A stretch of DNA of 46,289 bases, from contig CANNVE010000020.1 of NCBI GenBank assembly GCA_947525975.1, positions 1 to 46,289 of the forward strand, written 5' to 3'. This DNA is from an uncultured Muribaculaceae bacterium. Lineage in GTDB: Bacteria; Bacteroidota; Bacteroidia; Bacteroidales; Muribaculaceae. Both the position numbers and the translations under genes were made by a program. The notes below the pieces were generated by a model that worked only from the letters and a program-made list of their open reading frames with translations, had not been told where the DNA came from and did no database searches. Positions 6,850 through 46,289 of the stretch are shown in pieces (position 1 is the first letter of the stretch; each line of letters starts with the position of its first letter).

Positions 6850-9800
6850 TTATCTGATTTTCTTCCATTTGGCCGGACGCATGAAGCGGGGCAGTATCTG
6901 CACGAGCTTGTTGACCTTGCGCTTGTAGACGAAGCCGACGCCCGTCTGCGTGATTTCGCCCTCAAGTATGCTCTCATATCCGGTGTGGCGGAATATGCGC
7001 ACGAGCATCGTCTGGTTGGCGTTGAGGTAATACTCGATCGAGATGTCATTGACCAGGTTTTGCTCCAGATTCTGGTTGGCGCCGTCGTCGGTGCTGTAGT
7101 TGCCGCCCACCACTATCTTGAATCGGTCGTTGAAGAGCGATTTCGACACCTGATAGCTGTAGGTCATCGTCGATTGGGTGTATCCGTTGGTGGTCTGGTT
7201 GTATTGGTCTATGCCGAAGTTCAGGTCCACGCCCTTGATGTTGTTTGCCGCCCAGTTGTTGATCTGAGATTCGAGGAATGAATACAGCGGGCCGTATGAC
7301 AGTCCGGTAGATGCCTGTGTGGCGCCGGGGCCGGTGTACATGCCGTAGAGCAGCAGGTTCATGGCCTGGTTGGCTCTCTGCTCGGCAGTCATGCCCTGCA
7401 GCTGGTTGGCGATGGTGATGTCATCGTTGGTTGTGAGATCAAACTTCACGTCCATCTGCTCGAGGGTGCCTGTGACGCCGAGGAGCACGTTGAAGTTGAC
7501 GATGCACGAGTTCTGTCCTTCGAGTGTCACGTTGGTCTTGATCTTGTCAGTGGCGTGCACGTTCAGCACCGGGTTCATCATGTCGCCGTTGAATGATATG
7601 TATGATCCCTGTTCGAAGTCGAAGAGCTTCTCGCCCACCACGGGTATCGAATACCTTGCAAAGCCGCTGTTGATGTTTATGCGCCCGGTGAGGCGTCCGT
7701 CATTGGCGGCCGGCATCAGTATGTAGTTGACCGAGCCGGTGGCCTGCACCTCTATCTTGTCGCGGGCGGTGCCCGGATCGACTATGATGGTGTTTCCGCT
7801 TTCGAGATTGAGGGTGGCGTCTACGGCCAGCATCATCGAAGAGTCGCTGATAGAGTCAGCCGCCGCTACGGCGAGGGTGTCGTTGAAGTTGACGAATTTC
7901 ACCATGTCAGTCTCCTGGGGCGTCTGCAGCGATGCCGCGCCCGAGGTCATGACGTAGGTGATGTTTGTGCCGGGAAGCACCGATAGGTCGGCCTTAACGC
8001 TCATCAGGCGCATGTTGCCCTGCACCTTGGCGTTGAGGTCGATGTAGCCTCGCCCGTAGATGTTGGCTCCGTGCAGCGCACGGTTTGAGTTGACTATCAT
8101 CATGTTGTCGGCATTCAGGTCAAGCTTTATTTTCGGGTCTGAGATCGCCGACATGTCTACGGTGCCGTTGACGAGCAGCGGGTTTTCGTTGGTGCCGGTG
8201 ATGCCGAAGTCTGAGAATGTGACCACGTTGTCGACCACCGGTATCTCCACGGGCGAGATGGTATATGACGTGTTGGTCATCTTCAGTTTGACGGCTGATT
8301 CGTCGAAGTGTATGTTGCCGTTGACTATGGGGCGCGCTGCGTCGCCCTTGATATCCATGGTGCCGCTGAGTGTGCCGCTGAGCGTGGCCATGTTGTCGGG
8401 CAGGAATGGATTGGCCACCGACAGAGGGAAGTGGATCACGCCGAAGTCAAGGTTGAATGGCGATGTCGAAGTGGAGTCGTTGAGCGCGCCGCTGATAGTC
8501 ACGGCCTTTGCGCCGTTGACCAGCAGGTCTATGTCAGCCCTCACCATTCCCGAGGTGTTGGTGCTCACCTTCAGGTCAGTGTTGAAGTCGCCCACTTTCT
8601 GCTTGTTGTAGTAGAATCCGTCGAGGCTTGCCGAGCCCAGGCCGTTGATCGATGTGCCGCCGTCCCATGACAGCTTCAGGTCAGCCGAGAGATTGCCTTC
8701 CATCGGAGGTGCCCAGGGATTGATGGCCATCCAGTCCTGGATGCGTATGTCGGAGAGCTTGAGCACAATGTCGTCATTCTCGTCGATGTCATGCCGCTCG
8801 GCGTGGTTGCCGTCGTGCTCGGTGTATATGGCTATCGACGATTTGTCGCCTTTCATGTGCAGATTGGCGTCGATATGCTTGTGCGGGAAATTGTATTTTA
8901 TGTAGTTGTCTTCGTTCACGGTCCAGTCCTTGTAGGCGATCACCGGAGAGTAGGGCTTGATGTTGGCCGTGATTGTCGAGTCGGCGAAGCTTGCCTGCAG
9001 CCCGAGGTCGTATCCCACGATGCTGTCAATGTTGCGCTGGCGGGCATGGAGCGAGATCACGCCGTCGTCGAGCACTCCATCAAGGTTGACGTGAGCGAAC
9101 TGGTCCATGGTGCCGGGTTTGTTGTCGAGATTTGTGGCGAAAAGCACCCGGTTGCCGTTCTGGGTGAGGCGCACTCCCACCGAATCGAGGGTCATCGACT
9201 TGGTGCGTATGTCGGTGACGTACCCGTTCATCGAGAGGCAGCTGTCATTGTCAGCGTCAAACTTCAGGCGCCCTACGCTGAGGTCGCTCTGCGAAAGTAT
9301 GTCGTTGACAAGGTTGTTGCGACCTCCGCGGGCGCGCACGGTGAAGGGCGGCAGGCTCTTCTGCAGGCTGTCGGCGTATAGGTGACGGTTGGCCATCTCA
9401 TGGTCGAAAATGGTCATGAAGCGGTCGAATCTGCCGGTCAGGGAATCGAGCGGACAAGGCGACTCGGCGTTGAGCGAGAAGTCGCGGTTCACTACTTTCA
9501 GGGCGGTCAGGGAGTCTGAGGCCGCGAAGTTGGCCTTGATGTCTGAAAGCCGGTATTGCGCCACGCCCATAGTGAAGTCTGCGTTATTGACGTTGACTTC
9601 CGCGTTGATGGCGCCGGTATTCGGAGTGTATGATGCGTTGGCCGTGGTCTTCAGCGAGAGCATCGAAGGCTCCTGCATCAGATGCAGGGCGTGGAGGTTG
9701 ACATCGTCGGCCTCTATAGTGGCGTCCCATACATATTCATCGCCGGCGACGTTGCCCGAAGCCTCGATGTCGAGGTCTATGTCATGCTCGTGGATCGAGG

Positions 9801-41146: not shown

Positions 41147-41698
41147 ATGAAAATCTACACACGCACAGGCGATGCAGGCCTCACATCGCTCGTCGGCGGG
41201 AAGCGCGTGCCAAAGACATCGGCGCGCCTCGAAGCTTACGGCACAGTCGACGAGCTCAACTCCCACATAGGCCTCCTGCTCGCATACGAATGCCTTCCCC
41301 CCGAAGCCTACGTCACGCTCCGGAGGGTGCAGCACCGCCTCTTCAACCTCAGCAGCCAACTCGCCACAGAGCCCGAATCGGCCTATCAGCCGCAGGGCAT
41401 CGCGCAATCCGACGTGGAAGAGCTCGAAGCTGCAATAGACAAAGCCGACGCCGCCCTGCCACGCCATGACCGATTCATCCTGCCCGGAGGATCGATCCCC
41501 GCTGCCCAGGCCCACGTGTGCCGCACAGTGGCCCGACGCGCCGAGCGCCGCATGCTGCAGATGAATGAGCAAGGACATCCCGTAGACCCCGTGGCCCTGA
41601 GCTACATCAACCGCCTGAGCGACTACCTCTTCGTCCTCGCCCGCCAAATCAACGTTTTTATGAGCGCCCCCGAGATTTTTTGGGAAAAACAATTGTAA
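41147..41698 (+). CDS. pduO: Cob(I)alamin adenosyltransferase, PduO type
   Basis: A 183-residue enzyme that transfers the adenosyl group of ATP to cob(I)alamin, making coenzyme B12. TRTGDAGLTSLVGGKRVPK is the N-terminal ATP-binding motif, RLEAYGTVDELNSHIG follows, and AQAHVCRTVARRAERRM is the conserved helix with the ATP-contacting arginines. The length fits the trimeric PduO/MMAB type, not CobA/BtuR. No B12-dependent enzyme or propanediol genes are nearby, so it serves general coenzyme supply. It is the third gene of a tight unit with the acyl-CoA ligase and hydrolase. Confidence 0.95.
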   Translation: MKIYTRTGDAGLTSLVGGKRVPKTSARLEAYGTVDELNSHIGLLLAYECLPPEAYVTLRRVQHRLFNLSSQLATEPESAYQPQGIAQSDVEELEAAIDKADAALPRHDRFILPGGSIPAAQAHVCRTVARRAERRMLQMNEQGHPVDPVALSYINRLSDYLFVLARQINVFMSAPEIFWEKQL

Positions 41699-41723
41699 AT
41701 AGCGAAAAAATTGCATACCTTTG
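41693..41723 (+). promoter_or_regulatory. Bacteroidota-type promoter of the DUF2795 gene
   Basis: TTG (41693-41695) overlaps the end of the adenosyltransferase gene; 20 bp later is TACCTTTG (41716-41723). The predicted start near 41730 supports translation from 41808 and rules out the longer frame starting at 41721. Confidence 0.65.
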
Positions 41724-41807
41724 TGCGCTTTTTCCGTCAGGGCCTCCATAGGCTGCGGAAACACAAGCAAAAGAAAGTTCAACACATTTAAAACCATAAA
41801 GTTTGCT

Positions 41808-42050
41808 ATGTACAACAAGCAATCAAACGTATACTGGACCCTTGAGCTCGCCTCAAAGCTCGAGGACGCTCCCTGGCCCGCCACCAAAGACGAGCTCATC
41901 GACTACGCTCAGCGAAGCGGCGCCCCCCTCGAAGTGATCGAAAACCTCCAGGAAATGGAAGACGAAGGCGAGACCTACGAATCAATCGAAGACATCTGGC
42001 CCGACTACCCCTCCAAAGAAGACTTCTTCTTCAACGAGGAGGAATACTGA
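41808..42050 (+). CDS. DUF2795 domain-containing small protein
   Basis: An 80-residue acidic protein starting MYNKQSNVYWTLELASKLED. WPATKDELIDYAQRSGAPLEVIENLQEM is the DUF2795 core, a short helical domain; the C terminus (IEDIWPDYPSKEDFFFNEEE) is strongly acidic. Its function is unknown, but it is widespread and well conserved in Bacteroidales. It is monocistronic, with its own promoter and terminator. The last codons and stop (42030-42055) form one copy of the direct repeat that flanks the accessory segment, so an element may have integrated into the 3' end of this gene while keeping it intact. Confidence 0.9.
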   Translation: MYNKQSNVYWTLELASKLEDAPWPATKDELIDYAQRSGAPLEVIENLQEMEDEGETYESIEDIWPDYPSKEDFFFNEEEY

Positions 42051-42415: not shown

Positions 42416-44110
42416 ATGACAAACCAAGAATACATTGAACTATTTCATTCTCTCATTGAGCATGCTGAGAATGAGGTGGTGGAGTTCAAGAAGGCGGAGC
42501 GCAATTTTGACACTGATGACCTCGGTAAGTATTTCTCTGCGTTGAGCAACGAGGCCAATCTACGTGGTGTTGACTTCGCATGGTTGGTTATGGGGTATCA
42601 CGAACCGACTCATACCATTGTCGGCACTTCTTTCAAGAATAGCGAGGAAGGCATCAATAAATTGAAACATGATATTGCTCTCAATTCAACTTATAAATTG
42701 ACATTTAGAGAGGTTACGCCCATTATCATTGAGGGAAAGAGAGTCTTGATGTTCAAGATTCCCTCTGCCCCCAGGAATATTGTTATAAAGTGGAAAGGGA
42801 TTGCCTATGGTCGTGATGGTGAAAGTTTAGTGCCTTTGAACCAAGCAAAGAGTGATGAAATAAGACATCAGACCCCAATTCCTGACTGGTCGGGTGAACT
42901 TGTCGAATCAGCGACTATTGAGGATATTGATGAATTGGCTCTTGCGACAGCCCGCATCATGTATAAGAAGGTACATGGTTCTACTATTCCGGCAAATGAG
43001 GTTGATGAATGGTCGACTGAAGAATTCCTGTGTCATAGTGAGATGATGCGTGAGGGTAAACTTACAAGAGCTGCGATACTGCTATTAGGCAAGCCGTTGG
43101 CGCTCCAAAAGATTCACCCGGCCAATGCTCAGATTACTTGGGTCTGGAAGGATAAAGATGGAGAAGTGGTCGATTATGAGCATTTTTCAATTCCTTACAT
43201 TCTCACGGTAGACAAGATTTTCAACAAGATTCGCAATAAAACAATGCGCGAGTTGCCGGGAGGAACCCTATTCCCCGACACAATGAAACAGTATGAGGAT
43301 TATTCCATCCGCGAGGCTCTGCATAATTGCATAGCACATCAGGATTATTCTCTTGGTGGAAGAATTACTTTGGTAGAGAACGAAGGGTTCTTGTTTTACA
43401 GTAACAAGGGTACGTTCATTCCTACGTCAATAGAAAAGGTACTGAAAGAGAAGGGGCCTCAATCGGAATATCGCAACACATGCCTTGCGCATGGTATGGT
43501 TCATTTCAATATGATTGATACCGTTGGACGTGGAATTCCGAAAATGTTCAAGGAGCAACGTCGTCGCTTCTTTCCCATGCCGGAATATGATATTGATGAA
43601 AAGGAACGGACTGTAAGTGTCACGATATATGGCATATCAAGTGATGATGCCTATACTGATCTATTGAAGAGTGATTCCTCGTTGAGCCTTATGGAATGCC
43701 TGTGGCTTGATTCCGTAAGACGACACAAGCCGATTACAAAAGAAGCTGCAAAGCATTTGAGAGAGCGGAATCTCATTGAGGGCAAGGCTCCGAGATATAA
43801 CATCGCATTGTCTGTGGCGCAAAAGACTCAACAAGTAGGCCATTATACAAAAGAAACCGGATTGAACAAGATGGCGATGGTAAAGCTTGTCTTACAATTA
43901 GCGGACAACGCAGGAATAAAAGGATTTAAACGTGCTATGGCATTTGAAATCCTTGAACAAAGTCTTCCGGTAAGCCTGACAAGATCACAGAAACTCAACT
44001 TCCTGACACATTTGTTGATGGAGATAAACGAACGGGGCTTTATTGTAAAATCTGAGAGTGGGAAATCTTGGACAATAACGGAAGCAGGAAAGAAATACTT
44101 GAATTCTTAA
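42416..44110 (+). CDS. AlbA_2/Schlafen-type ATP-binding protein (RecG-like regulator family)
   Basis: A 564-residue protein. The N-terminal AlbA_2 (Schlafen AlbA_2, formerly AAA_4) domain spans about 1-130, with ENEVVEFKKAE and VDFAWLVMGYHEPTHTIVGT. The middle contains YEDYSIREALHNCIAHQDYS, a HATPase_c_4-type motif, with SNKGTFIPTSIEKVLKEKGP after it. The C terminus has winged-helix-like segments (RSQKLNFLTHLLMEINERGF, WTITEAGKKYLNS). Such proteins are often annotated as 'RecG-like' or transcriptional regulators, but helicase motifs are absent; AlbA_2 domains bind or cut nucleic acids in some families. The gene is clearly more AT-rich than the flanking backbone, consistent with horizontal transfer. 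Its role is unknown; defence is possible but unproven. Confidence 0.85.
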   Translation: MTNQEYIELFHSLIEHAENEVVEFKKAERNFDTDDLGKYFSALSNEANLRGVDFAWLVMGYHEPTHTIVGTSFKNSEEGINKLKHDIALNSTYKLTFREVTPIIIEGKRVLMFKIPSAPRNIVIKWKGIAYGRDGESLVPLNQAKSDEIRHQTPIPDWSGELVESATIEDIDELALATARIMYKKVHGSTIPANEVDEWSTEEFLCHSEMMREGKLTRAAILLLGKPLALQKIHPANAQITWVWKDKDGEVVDYEHFSIPYILTVDKIFNKIRNKTMRELPGGTLFPDTMKQYEDYSIREALHNCIAHQDYSLGGRITLVENEGFLFYSNKGTFIPTSIEKVLKEKGPQSEYRNTCLAHGMVHFNMIDTVGRGIPKMFKEQRRRFFPMPEYDIDEKERTVSVTIYGISSDDAYTDLLKSDSSLSLMECLWLDSVRRHKPITKEAAKHLRERNLIEGKAPRYNIALSVAQKTQQVGHYTKETGLNKMAMVKLVLQLADNAGIKGFKRAMAFEILEQSLPVSLTRSQKLNFLTHLLMEINERGFIVKSESGKSWTITEAGKKYLNS

Positions 44111-44130
44111 CCATGCCAAGAACGTTTTGA

Positions 44131-44163
44131 GCGTTTTCTGCGCGTTTTCTGCGCGTTTTCTGA
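44131..44163 (+). repeat. 11-bp tandem repeat ahead of the nucleotidyltransferase gene
   Basis: Three units of GCGTTTTCTGC (44131-44141, 44142-44152, 44153-44163, the last ending in A), with degenerate flanking units on both sides (ACGTTTTGA before, GTGTTTTTACT after). The array lies between the two accessory genes. Confidence 0.85.
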
Positions 44164-44219
44164 GTGTTTTTACTCCTTTTTACCCGTTTTATACGTGTCT
44201 TCCCTTAAAACATCGATAT

Positions 44220-45569
44220 ATGGAATATTCTGAGAAAGATTTGATTGATGTTGACCCGACGACCCGGATCAACGCGCTAATGCATGTGTTCGCCGATTAT
44301 AAGCCCGTGCTAATGCGAAAGTCTGATGATGGCTATGATTGGCTTGAGGATAACGAGTGCGCTTGCATCATTATCCCTAATCCGTTGTCCGAGGCACTTG
44401 ACATTGAAATCGAGTTGGCTGGGGAATTTACTCTTTATTTCGGCGGTACACATTGTCATTACTGGGCCTATGAAAGTGGATATGAAGATTTGATTACGGA
44501 TGTCCACGACATTCTTAAAGGAAAGATGTGCTCTTATGCTCTTTCATACGATGGCTGGGATTGGTGTTCTGGTTTTTGGAACGGCGATATGATCGATAAA
44601 TCCAAATGCGCTCAATACTTGCGGAATAATTCTGCGAAATATATCTATGCAATGAAGAAAAGCTATGGCAAAAAACTAAAACCAAATTCTGAATTCTCTG
44701 CACGGCTAATCTCGTATATATATTCTGACGAGTTCATTCATAACTGGAGACTTGGCGATTTGATAGATGTCAATCTATCGGACCAGAAGAAACAGCACCG
44801 GAAAATAGGGGAGGAGTTACGCCGGATTGAAGACGAATATGACGTAAAGATTTTGCTGGCAGTGGAATCTGGAAGTCGGGCATGGGGCTTCGCTTCACCC
44901 GACAGCGATTATGATGTCCGCTTCATATACGTCCATAAGCCACAATGGTATTTCTCAATAGGCAAACAGCCTGACACTATAGAATACATGTCTGGCGACC
45001 GTCTTCTTGACTTCTCCGGTTGGGAGCTCCGTAAGACTCTCCAACTTCTTTCCAAGACCAATCCGAATCTCTCTGATTGGCTACTGACTGATAAGATATA
45101 TCTCTGCGATGATGAATTCCTACATATAATTCGCAACGAACAGTCTAAATTCTACAACCCCATACATGCGATGTACCATTTCTTCAACATTGCAAAGCGT
45201 CACGATGAAGGTTACCTCCGAAGGAATGGTTGTATGCTCAAGAAGTTTCTATATTTTCTCCGAGGATTGCTGGCATGTGAATATATCGAGCAACATCAAC
45301 AGCACCCTCCTGTCGACTTCCGCGAACTTGTGGAGTCGACCATATCGGATAGGAATATTAAAAGTGCGATTAACTCACTTTTGGAGCTCAAGACAAAGAG
45401 CAAGGAGCATGATTCGGTCATTGTTAAGGAAGCACTGCAAAATTTCGCATACGGTCTATACAATGAGCGGGAAAAGAAACTCGCAGATTTTCGTTCCACA
45501 TTAAGCGACCGGTCATTATCAGATCTGGATGCTATCCTTTACCGATATGTATCCCGCATAGCCTTTTAG
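44220..45569 (+). CDS. Fusion of an unrecognised domain with an RlaP-like nucleotidyltransferase
   Basis: A 449-residue protein starting MEYSEKDLIDVDPTTRINAL. The frame extends upstream to 44127, but through repeat sequence coding for a hydrophobic, unlikely N terminus. The first about 190 residues form an aromatic-rich domain I do not recognise (FTLYFGGTHCHYWAYESGYE, SYDGWDWCSGFWNGDM). From about 225, AVESGSRAWGFASPDSDYDV followed by RFIYVH is the Pol-beta-type nucleotidyltransferase core (GSR...DSDYD) of the RlaP/YcgL-like family (PF10127), with its helical C-terminal part. The metal-binding aspartates are present, so it should be active. RlaP proteins are linked to RNA repair in some genomes. 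It follows the AlbA_2 gene by 109 bp and shares its AT-rich composition. Confidence 0.82.
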   Translation: MEYSEKDLIDVDPTTRINALMHVFADYKPVLMRKSDDGYDWLEDNECACIIIPNPLSEALDIEIELAGEFTLYFGGTHCHYWAYESGYEDLITDVHDILKGKMCSYALSYDGWDWCSGFWNGDMIDKSKCAQYLRNNSAKYIYAMKKSYGKKLKPNSEFSARLISYIYSDEFIHNWRLGDLIDVNLSDQKKQHRKIGEELRRIEDEYDVKILLAVESGSRAWGFASPDSDYDVRFIYVHKPQWYFSIGKQPDTIEYMSGDRLLDFSGWELRKTLQLLSKTNPNLSDWLLTDKIYLCDDEFLHIIRNEQSKFYNPIHAMYHFFNIAKRHDEGYLRRNGCMLKKFLYFLRGLLACEYIEQHQQHPPVDFRELVESTISDRNIKSAINSLLELKTKSKEHDSVIVKEALQNFAYGLYNEREKKLADFRSTLSDRSLSDLDAILYRYVSRIAF

Positions 45570-45638
45570 AGTCAAATTCACTTACCCATTAAAAATTGAT
45601 TAATCGCAATCATCCGACCCACAAGTCTTTTGAATTTA

Positions 45639-45661
45639 TTCAACGAAAAATACTGATCGCC
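45639..45661. repeat. Direct repeat flanking the accessory segment, right copy
   Basis: TTCAACGA, 2 bp, AATACTGATCGCC, matching 42030-42055. In frame it reads LFNEKY-stop, close to the FFNEEEY-stop end of the DUF2795 protein, and is also followed by a hairpin terminator. It looks like a displaced 3' end of that gene. Confidence 0.6.
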
Positions 45662-45689
45662 GTCAAAGCGTTTAATTCCAAGGACATCA

Positions 45690-45727
45690 AAGGGTTGAGC
45701 ATTGCACATTGCAATCGCTCAACCCTT
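45690..45727 (+). terminator. Hairpin terminator at the right edge of the accessory segment
   Basis: An 11-bp outer stem (AAGGGTTGAGC with GCTCAACCCTT) encloses a small inner stem ATTGC-ACATT-GCAAT. It is followed by TCTACTT rather than a clean T run. It could end the nucleotidyltransferase transcript or be the original terminator of the DUF2795 gene. Confidence 0.6.
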
Positions 45728-46183
45728 TCTACTTGCCTATTTCGCATTTTACAGCGTATAAAACTGTCTAAGACTCACATATTAAACCTAAAATATCCCC
45801 GGAACTTTTAACTATCGAAAAAGTTTCAAGACCTTTGCCGACTGACGTGATCCAAAAAAAATGTATAGGTTAAACATTATCCCGTTATATAAAGAGTTAG
45901 GGATTGCACCGGATCTTTACATAATCGTCATTCAGATTTATTACAACTATATCGAAATTGAGTGTTAGATGGCAAAAATTGATTAACTGCCAACAAAAAT
46001 ATCAACAAAAAGGCACAATAGTTTCATAACGTGAGGGGAGCCTCTTGTAATAGCAATCTTACACCTGAGACATAAGCACAACACGGCACATTTACTTTAA
46101 TTATTTCTATTCCATAAATATACGATAGTAATATTATAAGCGTTGACTTAGCAACTTAGGTGTTATAAAACATATTTATAAAC
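45728..46183. other. AT-rich non-coding stretch
   Basis: I see no convincing gene here. A 71-codon open frame beginning at 45596 runs through the repeat and terminator and looks spurious. The base composition is clearly more AT-rich than in the coding backbone. Confidence 0.6.
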
Positions 46184-46214
46184 TTGCAAATTCTTTTTTA
46201 AAGCAGTAAATTTG
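46184..46214 (+). promoter_or_regulatory. Bacteroidota-type promoter at the right end of the window
   Basis: TTG (46184-46186), 20 bp, TAAATTTG (46207-46214). The predicted transcript start at about 46219-46221 coincides with the base of the first hairpin described below. Confidence 0.65.
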
Positions 46215-46218
46215 TAAA

Positions 46219-46289
46219 GACATTGGACAATGTCTGGCAGGCGGATGCTTGTCATTGTGGCTGGATAGCCACGCGGTCTCTACACCTGG
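46219..46289 (+). ncRNA. Candidate structured RNA with three GGA-loop hairpins, incomplete
   Basis: Three hairpins follow one another directly after a promoter. Hairpin 1 is 46219-46234 (6-bp stem, loop GGAC). Hairpin 2 is 46235-46254 (8-bp stem with two G-U pairs, loop GGAT). Hairpin 3 is 46257-46272 (6-bp stem GTGGCT/AGCCAC, loop GGAT). No start codon or open frame is visible before the window ends. I recognise no known RNA family. It could be a small RNA or the leader of a gene beyond the window. Confidence 0.45.

Follow-up and report, generated by a model that had tools for sequence, protein, structure and literature searches.

The hairpins that close the window (the whole stretch of DNA that was analysed, 46,289 bases) are, judged from comparison with related sequences, a real RNA element, and they most likely belong to a leader or antitoxin-like RNA, the loops of which would bind a protein, probably an AIPR-like one. 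On balance, and with modest confidence, the window is considered to hold the 5' portion of a regulatory transcript that belongs to an AIPR-like mobile defence module, with the AIPR-like protein as the likely binder of the loops. The conserved structure, the linkage to a gene in relatives, the recurrence of the loop, and the alternative helices that the RNA may form are each supported by the comparisons described below.

The window corresponds to one whole contig (C20) of a 2.9-Mb assembly of 56 contigs (G000), and it stops at position 46289 because the contig itself ends there. The forward strand carries a Bacteroidota-type promoter (46184..46214) that comprises TTG at 46184-46186, a spacer of 20 nt, and TAAATTTG at 46207-46214; the consensus behind this label is the one we take to be typical of the phylum. 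In a three-way alignment with the relatives L065 and L094 both TTG and TAAATT.G are invariant, which bears out the promoter that a first-pass annotation of this DNA had placed before the first hairpin, and transcription is expected, from the sequence, to start at approximately 46218-46221. A scan with an E. coli-type consensus did not detect the promoter at 46184..46214. Immediately downstream, folding of the same strand gives three tandem hairpins that together span 46218-46273, as had been annotated: hairpin 1 (46218..46235, loop GGAC), hairpin 2 (46236..46253, loop GGAU), and hairpin 3 (46256..46273, loop GGAU). The stem lengths originally given as 6, 8, and 6 bp did not hold, since each stem measures 7 bp in the minimum free energy (MFE) structure and strict extension yields 7, 8, and 7 bp. 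The region 46215-46289 has an MFE of -26.7 kcal/mol (z -2.49), and 4 of 200 shuffled sequences were equally stable. In 237 Mb of simulated window sequence (second-order Markov, one strand, stems of at least 5 bp) no GGAY triple was encountered, next to 9 adjacent pairs and 13,004 single GGAY hairpins, numbers that serve as a guide only, as the motif was picked post hoc.

Behind hairpin 3 follows a conserved tail, CGGTCTCTACACCTGG (46274..46289, forward strand), which is cut by the contig end and of which 15 of the 16 bases are common to L065 and L094 in the alignments; beyond the point of truncation these relatives contain more AGGAU-bearing sequence up to the start of an AIPR-like gene. The list of open reading frames contains no frame of at least 60 amino acids over the hairpin stretch, and the alignment shows a one-base insertion or deletion on the way from hairpin 2 to hairpin 3, which makes a conserved reading frame through the hairpins, named at first as grounds for discarding the RNA, unlikely. 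A search of the Rfam collection with positions 45560-46289 (E<=5) returned zero family matches, the abiF motif (RF03085) included. The hairpin RNA is present in one copy in the 2.9-Mb assembly, in which only chance-level matches of 17-19 bases were found otherwise.

A covariance model built on the window only was used to search 397 genomes of the same family, and it retrieved, apart from the window's own match, a single strong match in G120 (locus L065; 52.9 bits, E 2e-9), a genome from a genus other than that of the window, whereas every other match scored 22.3 bits or less. As far as assembled sequence goes, these counts do not support the proposal that the window had ended in a multicopy, repeated RNA. 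A third copy, L094, resides in a Bacteroides metagenome-assembled genome and was reached via its AIPR-like protein. Promoter, three hairpins, and tail are common to the three copies, which score 88-98 bits in a later covariance model of which all three are members. Compensatory stem changes, which the first-pass annotation had proposed to look for by covariance analysis, were found: 7 of the 21 pairs changed on both sides across the three copies (2 of 7 in hairpin 1, 2 of 7 in hairpin 2 with 2 further pairs changed on one side, and 3 of 7 in hairpin 3), while the GGAY loops were retained. In the alignment 96.8% of the cells are paired, a value reached by 1 of 500 shuffles, and the both-side and covariation measures were matched by 2 of 500 shuffles; structures slid along the alignment as a control gave just 0-1 pairs changed on both sides. 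The number of further pair types was unremarkable (77 of 500 shuffles), and hairpin 3 of L094 has lost its innermost pair. The covariation is therefore regarded as good and not as final, since it rests on three sequences and since G120, unlike L094, was retrieved with a model that rewards structure.

Broader searches yielded little else. A second covariance model (R2), run on 295 genomes of the order, gave beyond the window's own match just three matches of 20.7-24.3 bits, of which the 3-kb loci lacked a GGAY array (a single hairpin occurs at the match in L248) and, by tblastn, an AIPR-like gene; such a gene was likewise absent from the 3-kb loci of the weak matches (22.3 bits or less) of the 397-genome search. 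A search by sequence alone in phages, plasmids, and 99 genomes (the window's own included) produced just short, chance-type matches, for example to a promoter-like sequence in G056.

In both L065 and L094 an open reading frame of 443 amino acids (446 as first called in L094) starts 168-174 nt after the first hairpin. The only Pfam match of the L065 protein is AIPR (PF10592), at 20.4 bits over residues 54-120 and thus below the cut-off of 25; this applies to all three proteins that were scanned, as the homologues L097 and L098 reach 15.5 and 17.4 bits, respectively, also with AIPR as their only Pfam match and with no match to a ToxN-like endoribonuclease. The AIPR-like proteins contain an EGI.DGGHN motif, which we take to be reminiscent of DGQHR-type motifs. 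A sequence search against the PDB produced a lone match (E 0.44) that was of no use, and an AlphaFold model of the protein was too poor for use (mean pLDDT 57.6). The AIPR-like gene is followed by a gene for a HARE-HTH protein (Pfam) in L095 and L094, which by eye we presume to be GIY-YIG-like, and a type IIG-like fragment lies near the AIPR-like gene in L097. The ORF directly after the AIPR-like gene varies between loci, being the HARE-HTH ORF (Pfam) at 6427-7260 in L095, a helicase-like ORF of 1048 amino acids (by eye) at 6383-9529 in L102, and a methylase/type IIG-like ORF of 1346 amino acids (by eye) at 6434-10474 in L103.

The protein is sparsely distributed, occurring in 1 of 397 genomes of the family and in 2 of 395 genomes of the phylum, the latter two being remote AIPR proteins (L113 and L114) that were excluded from the leader comparison, since the stretch that was looked at falls inside their ORFs. 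Neither the AIPR-like protein nor its partner protein was encountered elsewhere in G000 and the contig ends before any gene, so that for the window the link between RNA and gene runs via orthology of the RNA, from which we infer an AIPR-like gene behind the window itself. The conserved tail and the AIPR-like gene behind it in relatives indicate that the RNA is linked to a gene, and they were overlooked initially because the contig ends. The reading offered at that time, a different protein-binding RNA or a new class of leader, remains the best one, with the RNA tied to a gene in place of a free-standing decoy.

Upstream of the RNA, the forward-strand genes at 41147..42050, identified from ORF translations and presumably encoding a cobalamin adenosyltransferase-like and a DUF2795-like protein, also precede the RNA and its AIPR-like module in G120 (L065/L095), such that the RNAs of the window and of G120 both lie behind the same anchor genes. 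Between anchor and RNA the window carries, on the same strand (42416..45569), an SLFN_AlbA_2 gene followed by a gene for RlaP (RNA-repair polymerase-beta-like), a protein matched in 4 of 99 genomes (own included); in G042 the SLFN_AlbA_2/RlaP pair adjoins efflux-pump-like genes. This pair is probably a separate mobile, RNA-related two-gene module, and because it lies between anchor and RNA in the window and elsewhere in G042, two mobile modules appear to be stacked in the window. Behind the RlaP gene, a long inverted repeat, AAAGGGTTGAGC...GCTCAACCCTTT (45689-45728), looks terminator-like by eye and failed the terminator scan.

Relatives of the L065 protein were found on Roseomonas and Subdoligranulum plasmids (32-34% identity) and in the viral contigs L101-L104 (32-35%), and one further protein, L105, was reached via an alignment of eight rows and is 43% identical to the Subdoligranulum protein. 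Hairpins with the same loops recur upstream of these plasmid and viral-contig homologues. When the 250 nt upstream of each of nine AIPR-like genes were pooled, GGAU was the commonest of the 256 possible tetraloops, with 19 hairpins (stems of at least 4 bp) as compared to 3 for the runner-up loop. GGAU hairpins occurred at all nine loci with stems of at least 4 bp and at eight of them with stems of 5 or 6 bp, and GGAY hairpins with stems of at least 6 bp numbered 15 in the 2,250 nt of leader versus 43 in 1,655,668 nt of background loci (both strands). At least one GGAY hairpin was present upstream of 9/9 AIPR-like genes and two or more upstream of 8/9, whereas among 140 control starts from the same loci one such hairpin preceded three and two or more preceded none. 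The nine leaders represent about six lineages, because L065 and L094, as well as L097, L103, and L104, are close relatives. Moreover, with the window counted in, 22 of 24 hairpins close the GGAY loop by a pyrimidine-purine pair, versus 160 of 255 in the background, and both exceptions are 4-bp hairpins that overlap an arm of the long-range helix described below.

Deviating loops occur in L097 (hairpin 1, GAGA), L101 (hairpin 1, GAGAU; hairpin 3, GGCA), and L103 (hairpin 3, a GGA triloop), and the loop of hairpin 2 is variable in the leaders from outside the Bacteroidota. GGAY hairpins were absent from the approximately 390 nt before the ORF in L110-L112, three phage contigs of a single lineage in which the homologue is 35% identical, and from the sense strand upstream of the annotated, remoter AIPR genes L099 and L100; the RNA therefore marks one branch of the AIPR family. 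The AIPR-like protein of L110-L112 (ORF 3938-5239 in L111) could be a phage-borne variant or a counter-defence form. DNA patterns of hairpin 2 matched at least 128 stretches of viral contigs, and among the matches listed the protein was found in two, L238 (identical to L105) and L239 (identical to L101). Rfam searches of L065, L094, L097, and L098 (E<=1) and of L101-L105 (E<=0.5) did not detect RF03085 or any family within the leaders, and outside the leaders they gave a tRNA in L098 and a sub-threshold miRNA match in L103. Also outside the leader, the Subdoligranulum plasmid locus L098 has an STnc490 match (8139-8245, 46.4 bits, gathering score 56) that adjoins an IS200-like transposase ORF recognised by eye.

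The sequence between hairpins and gene suggests that the RNA may adopt alternative structures. In all seven leaders from outside the Bacteroidota GGUUCUGG is invariant; it contains the 3' arm of hairpin 2, in which its GGUUC lies opposite GAACC (GCACC in L098, where 4 of 5 pairs can form). An 8-11-mer of GGUUCUGG has an alternative partner in each of the seven leaders, at a site that ends 22-28 nt before the start codon, and in every one of them a free search for partners placed the best one at this site. The resulting long-range helix was clearly better than shuffled sequence in four leaders (0, 2, 6, and 8 of 500 shuffles) and was not clearly better in L101, L097, and L102 (90, 108, and 181 of 500, respectively). 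Both-side changes were observed at helix positions 9-11, which are present in up to four leaders; positions 1-8 show one-side changes only, with one mismatch in L097. L098, L101, and L105 have the long-range helix in their MFE structure, and L097, L102, L103, and L104 have hairpin 2, a split that near-equal alternatives would be expected to give. A Shine-Dalgarno-like tract falls in a local MFE hairpin in five of the seven leaders (L097 and L101-L104; not L098 and L105), and close to this tract L101 and L103 can form a hairpin with a GGAU loop. Of two leaders subjected to the terminator scan, L098 has an intrinsic terminator between hairpins and gene and L094 has none. In the same region of L065 and L094 a GCUGU..ACAGC stem followed by a U-run can be recognised by eye, around which the MFE structure of L065 forms a 14-bp helix that is lacking from the different MFE structure of L094.

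These observations can be brought together in a model in which the hairpin stretch would constitute the 5' end of the regulatory RNA of a small, mobile, defence-type module, the protein of which would be distant kin of AbiU1/AIPR. The module's own promoter would start an RNA that displays three, probably four, YGGAYR hairpins as putative protein-binding sites, and the tail of the RNA may control the gene that starts approximately 170 nt further on, through premature termination and/or through the long-range helix together with the Shine-Dalgarno hairpin. A loop that is kept while stems change, is repeated within a leader, and tracks one gene family in Bacteroidota, Bacillota, and Pseudomonadota points to recognition of YGGAYR hairpins by a protein, and the AIPR-like protein is the simplest common factor across these three phyla and the likeliest binder. 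If it is the binder, RNA and protein would form a self-limiting pair: free AIPR-like protein on the loops would lower its own expression and/or be held inactive until infection disturbs the balance.

The published layout nearest to that of the module appears, by analogy, to be AbiF-RCd22. According to its published description, this system consists of a promoter, a 132-nt RNA with two hairpin motifs, a terminator, and an ATG at 168 nt from the transcript start, and the RCd22 RNA binds and neutralises the AbiF protein in cis and in trans; AbiF was linked by its authors to the origin of Cas13 (PMC12373285). The AIPR-like module shares with AbiF-RCd22 (abiF motif, RF03085) an own promoter, a short RNA of repeated hairpins, a terminator as called in L098, and then an abortive-infection-type gene, and the first hairpin of L065 and L094 lies at a distance from the ORF (168-174 nt) similar to that of the RCd22 start. 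It differs from AbiF-RCd22 in that RF03085 did not match the scanned stretches of window and leaders, in the three or more GGAY hairpins of the Bacteroidota copies, in encoding an AIPR-like instead of an Abi_2 protein, and in the candidate long-range helix to the start region. The likeness raises the possibility, less probable than the preferred leader yet the foremost of its competitors, that the transcript is a short, terminated RNA acting in trans as antitoxin or cofactor, with GGAY hairpins that neutralise the AIPR-like protein and with little role as a leader. This agrees with the spacing just mentioned, with the succession of promoter, hairpins, terminator, and gene in L098, and with the stem and U-run of L065 and L094; however, each of the seven leaders from outside the Bacteroidota can pair its tail up to 22-28 nt before the start codon, which fits control in cis, and of the two leaders scanned for a terminator only L098 was positive.

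In type III toxin-antitoxin systems (ToxIN, CptIN, TenpIN) an RNA array likewise lies upstream of a single protein gene with a terminator between them. L065 and L094 resemble these systems in having a hairpin array and a gene, with a terminator called by the scan in L098 and not in L094, but the AIPR-like protein is 443-465 amino acids long and, in L065, L097, and L098, is by Pfam not a ToxN-like endoribonuclease. Features in common with AbiU1/AIPR and DndB proteins are the weak AIPR profile match at residues 54-120, the EGI.DGGHN motif, and the restriction-type neighbours; as differences, the three scanned proteins remain under the Pfam cut-off, and the annotated AIPR genes L099 and L100 have no sense-strand hairpins. 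AIPR proteins are described in print as common companions of restriction systems (RM operons) and as relatives of the N-terminal portion of DndB. Among the open-licence PMC articles listed, there was neither a structured RNA upstream of AIPR genes nor a GGAY-hairpin RNA, and the articles consulted gave no explanation of how AIPR proteins are controlled. With respect to the proposed family of GGAY-hairpin leaders of AIPR-like genes, the window has the hairpins and the covariation, and the gene would lie past the contig end.

The sponge RNAs of the Csr/Rsm system (RsmY/RsmZ, CsrB) expose GGA in the loops of tandem hairpins, a signature of CsrA binding that is matched by the GGA loops of all three window hairpins. 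A leader that is read by a host factor, such as a CsrA-like or other RNA-binding protein, a ribosomal protein, or a small molecule, in place of the module's own protein would also agree with the GGAU hairpins that can form near the Shine-Dalgarno sequence in L101 and L103. We nonetheless regard such a leader as improbable. Among 61 genomes of the order to which the window belongs, its own included, none matched CsrA (PF02599), as compared to 3 of 14 control genomes, in line with the first-pass remark that Bacteroidota generally lack this protein. Furthermore, the loop accompanies the AIPR-like gene in three phyla, which would need the factor in common; unlike the sponge RNAs, the RNA is tied in relatives to one gene; and the GGAY tetraloop has a paired pyrimidine before GGA (22 of 24 hairpins), unlike the A.GGA of CsrA sites.

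Very little weight is given to the leader of an rRNA operon or another repeat at which the assembly was broken, although G000 has no 16S rRNA match and assembly breaks are frequent at such sites: eight rRNA leaders (six from the family, two from the order, none from the window's own genus; 8 of 21 tried) were all unlike the window, and the occurrence of the RNA homologues before an AIPR-like gene contradicts this candidate. The absence of 16S rRNA from an assembly that is 99.9% complete is an observation in itself, and its rRNA operons seem to be unassembled or unbinned. Five of the six family rRNA leaders (L036, L037, L039, L056, and L058) have a AAGTAGTACAAGAG-like motif before the 16S gene, which is possibly an antitermination signal. 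Finally, chance hairpins at a contig end have a negligible probability, since the merely modest MFE z-score of the window is outweighed by the covariation, the conservation of promoter and tail, and the enrichment of the loop before AIPR-like genes, which contradict them.

The preferred reading, a leader or antitoxin-like RNA bound by the AIPR-like protein, can be extended tentatively, and with less assurance than its core, to an RNA-protein anti-phage pair of Bacteroidota, Bacillota, and Pseudomonadota, in which an AIPR/DndB-like protein would read the YGGAYR hairpins of its own RNA, the RNA may serve as switchable leader and antitoxin, and the effectors (HARE-HTH/GIY-YIG-like, helicase-like, or type IIG-like) would be interchangeable. 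The finding also reveals arrays of GGA loops in a lineage whose searched genomes gave no CsrA match. Moreover, a recurring hairpin RNA with a single type of loop before a distinct branch of AIPR-like genes provides a testable handle on the control of AIPR proteins: from the loop one would expect an activity that binds RNA, from the alternative helices a switch, and from the layout an AbiF-like defence protein kept in check by RNA.
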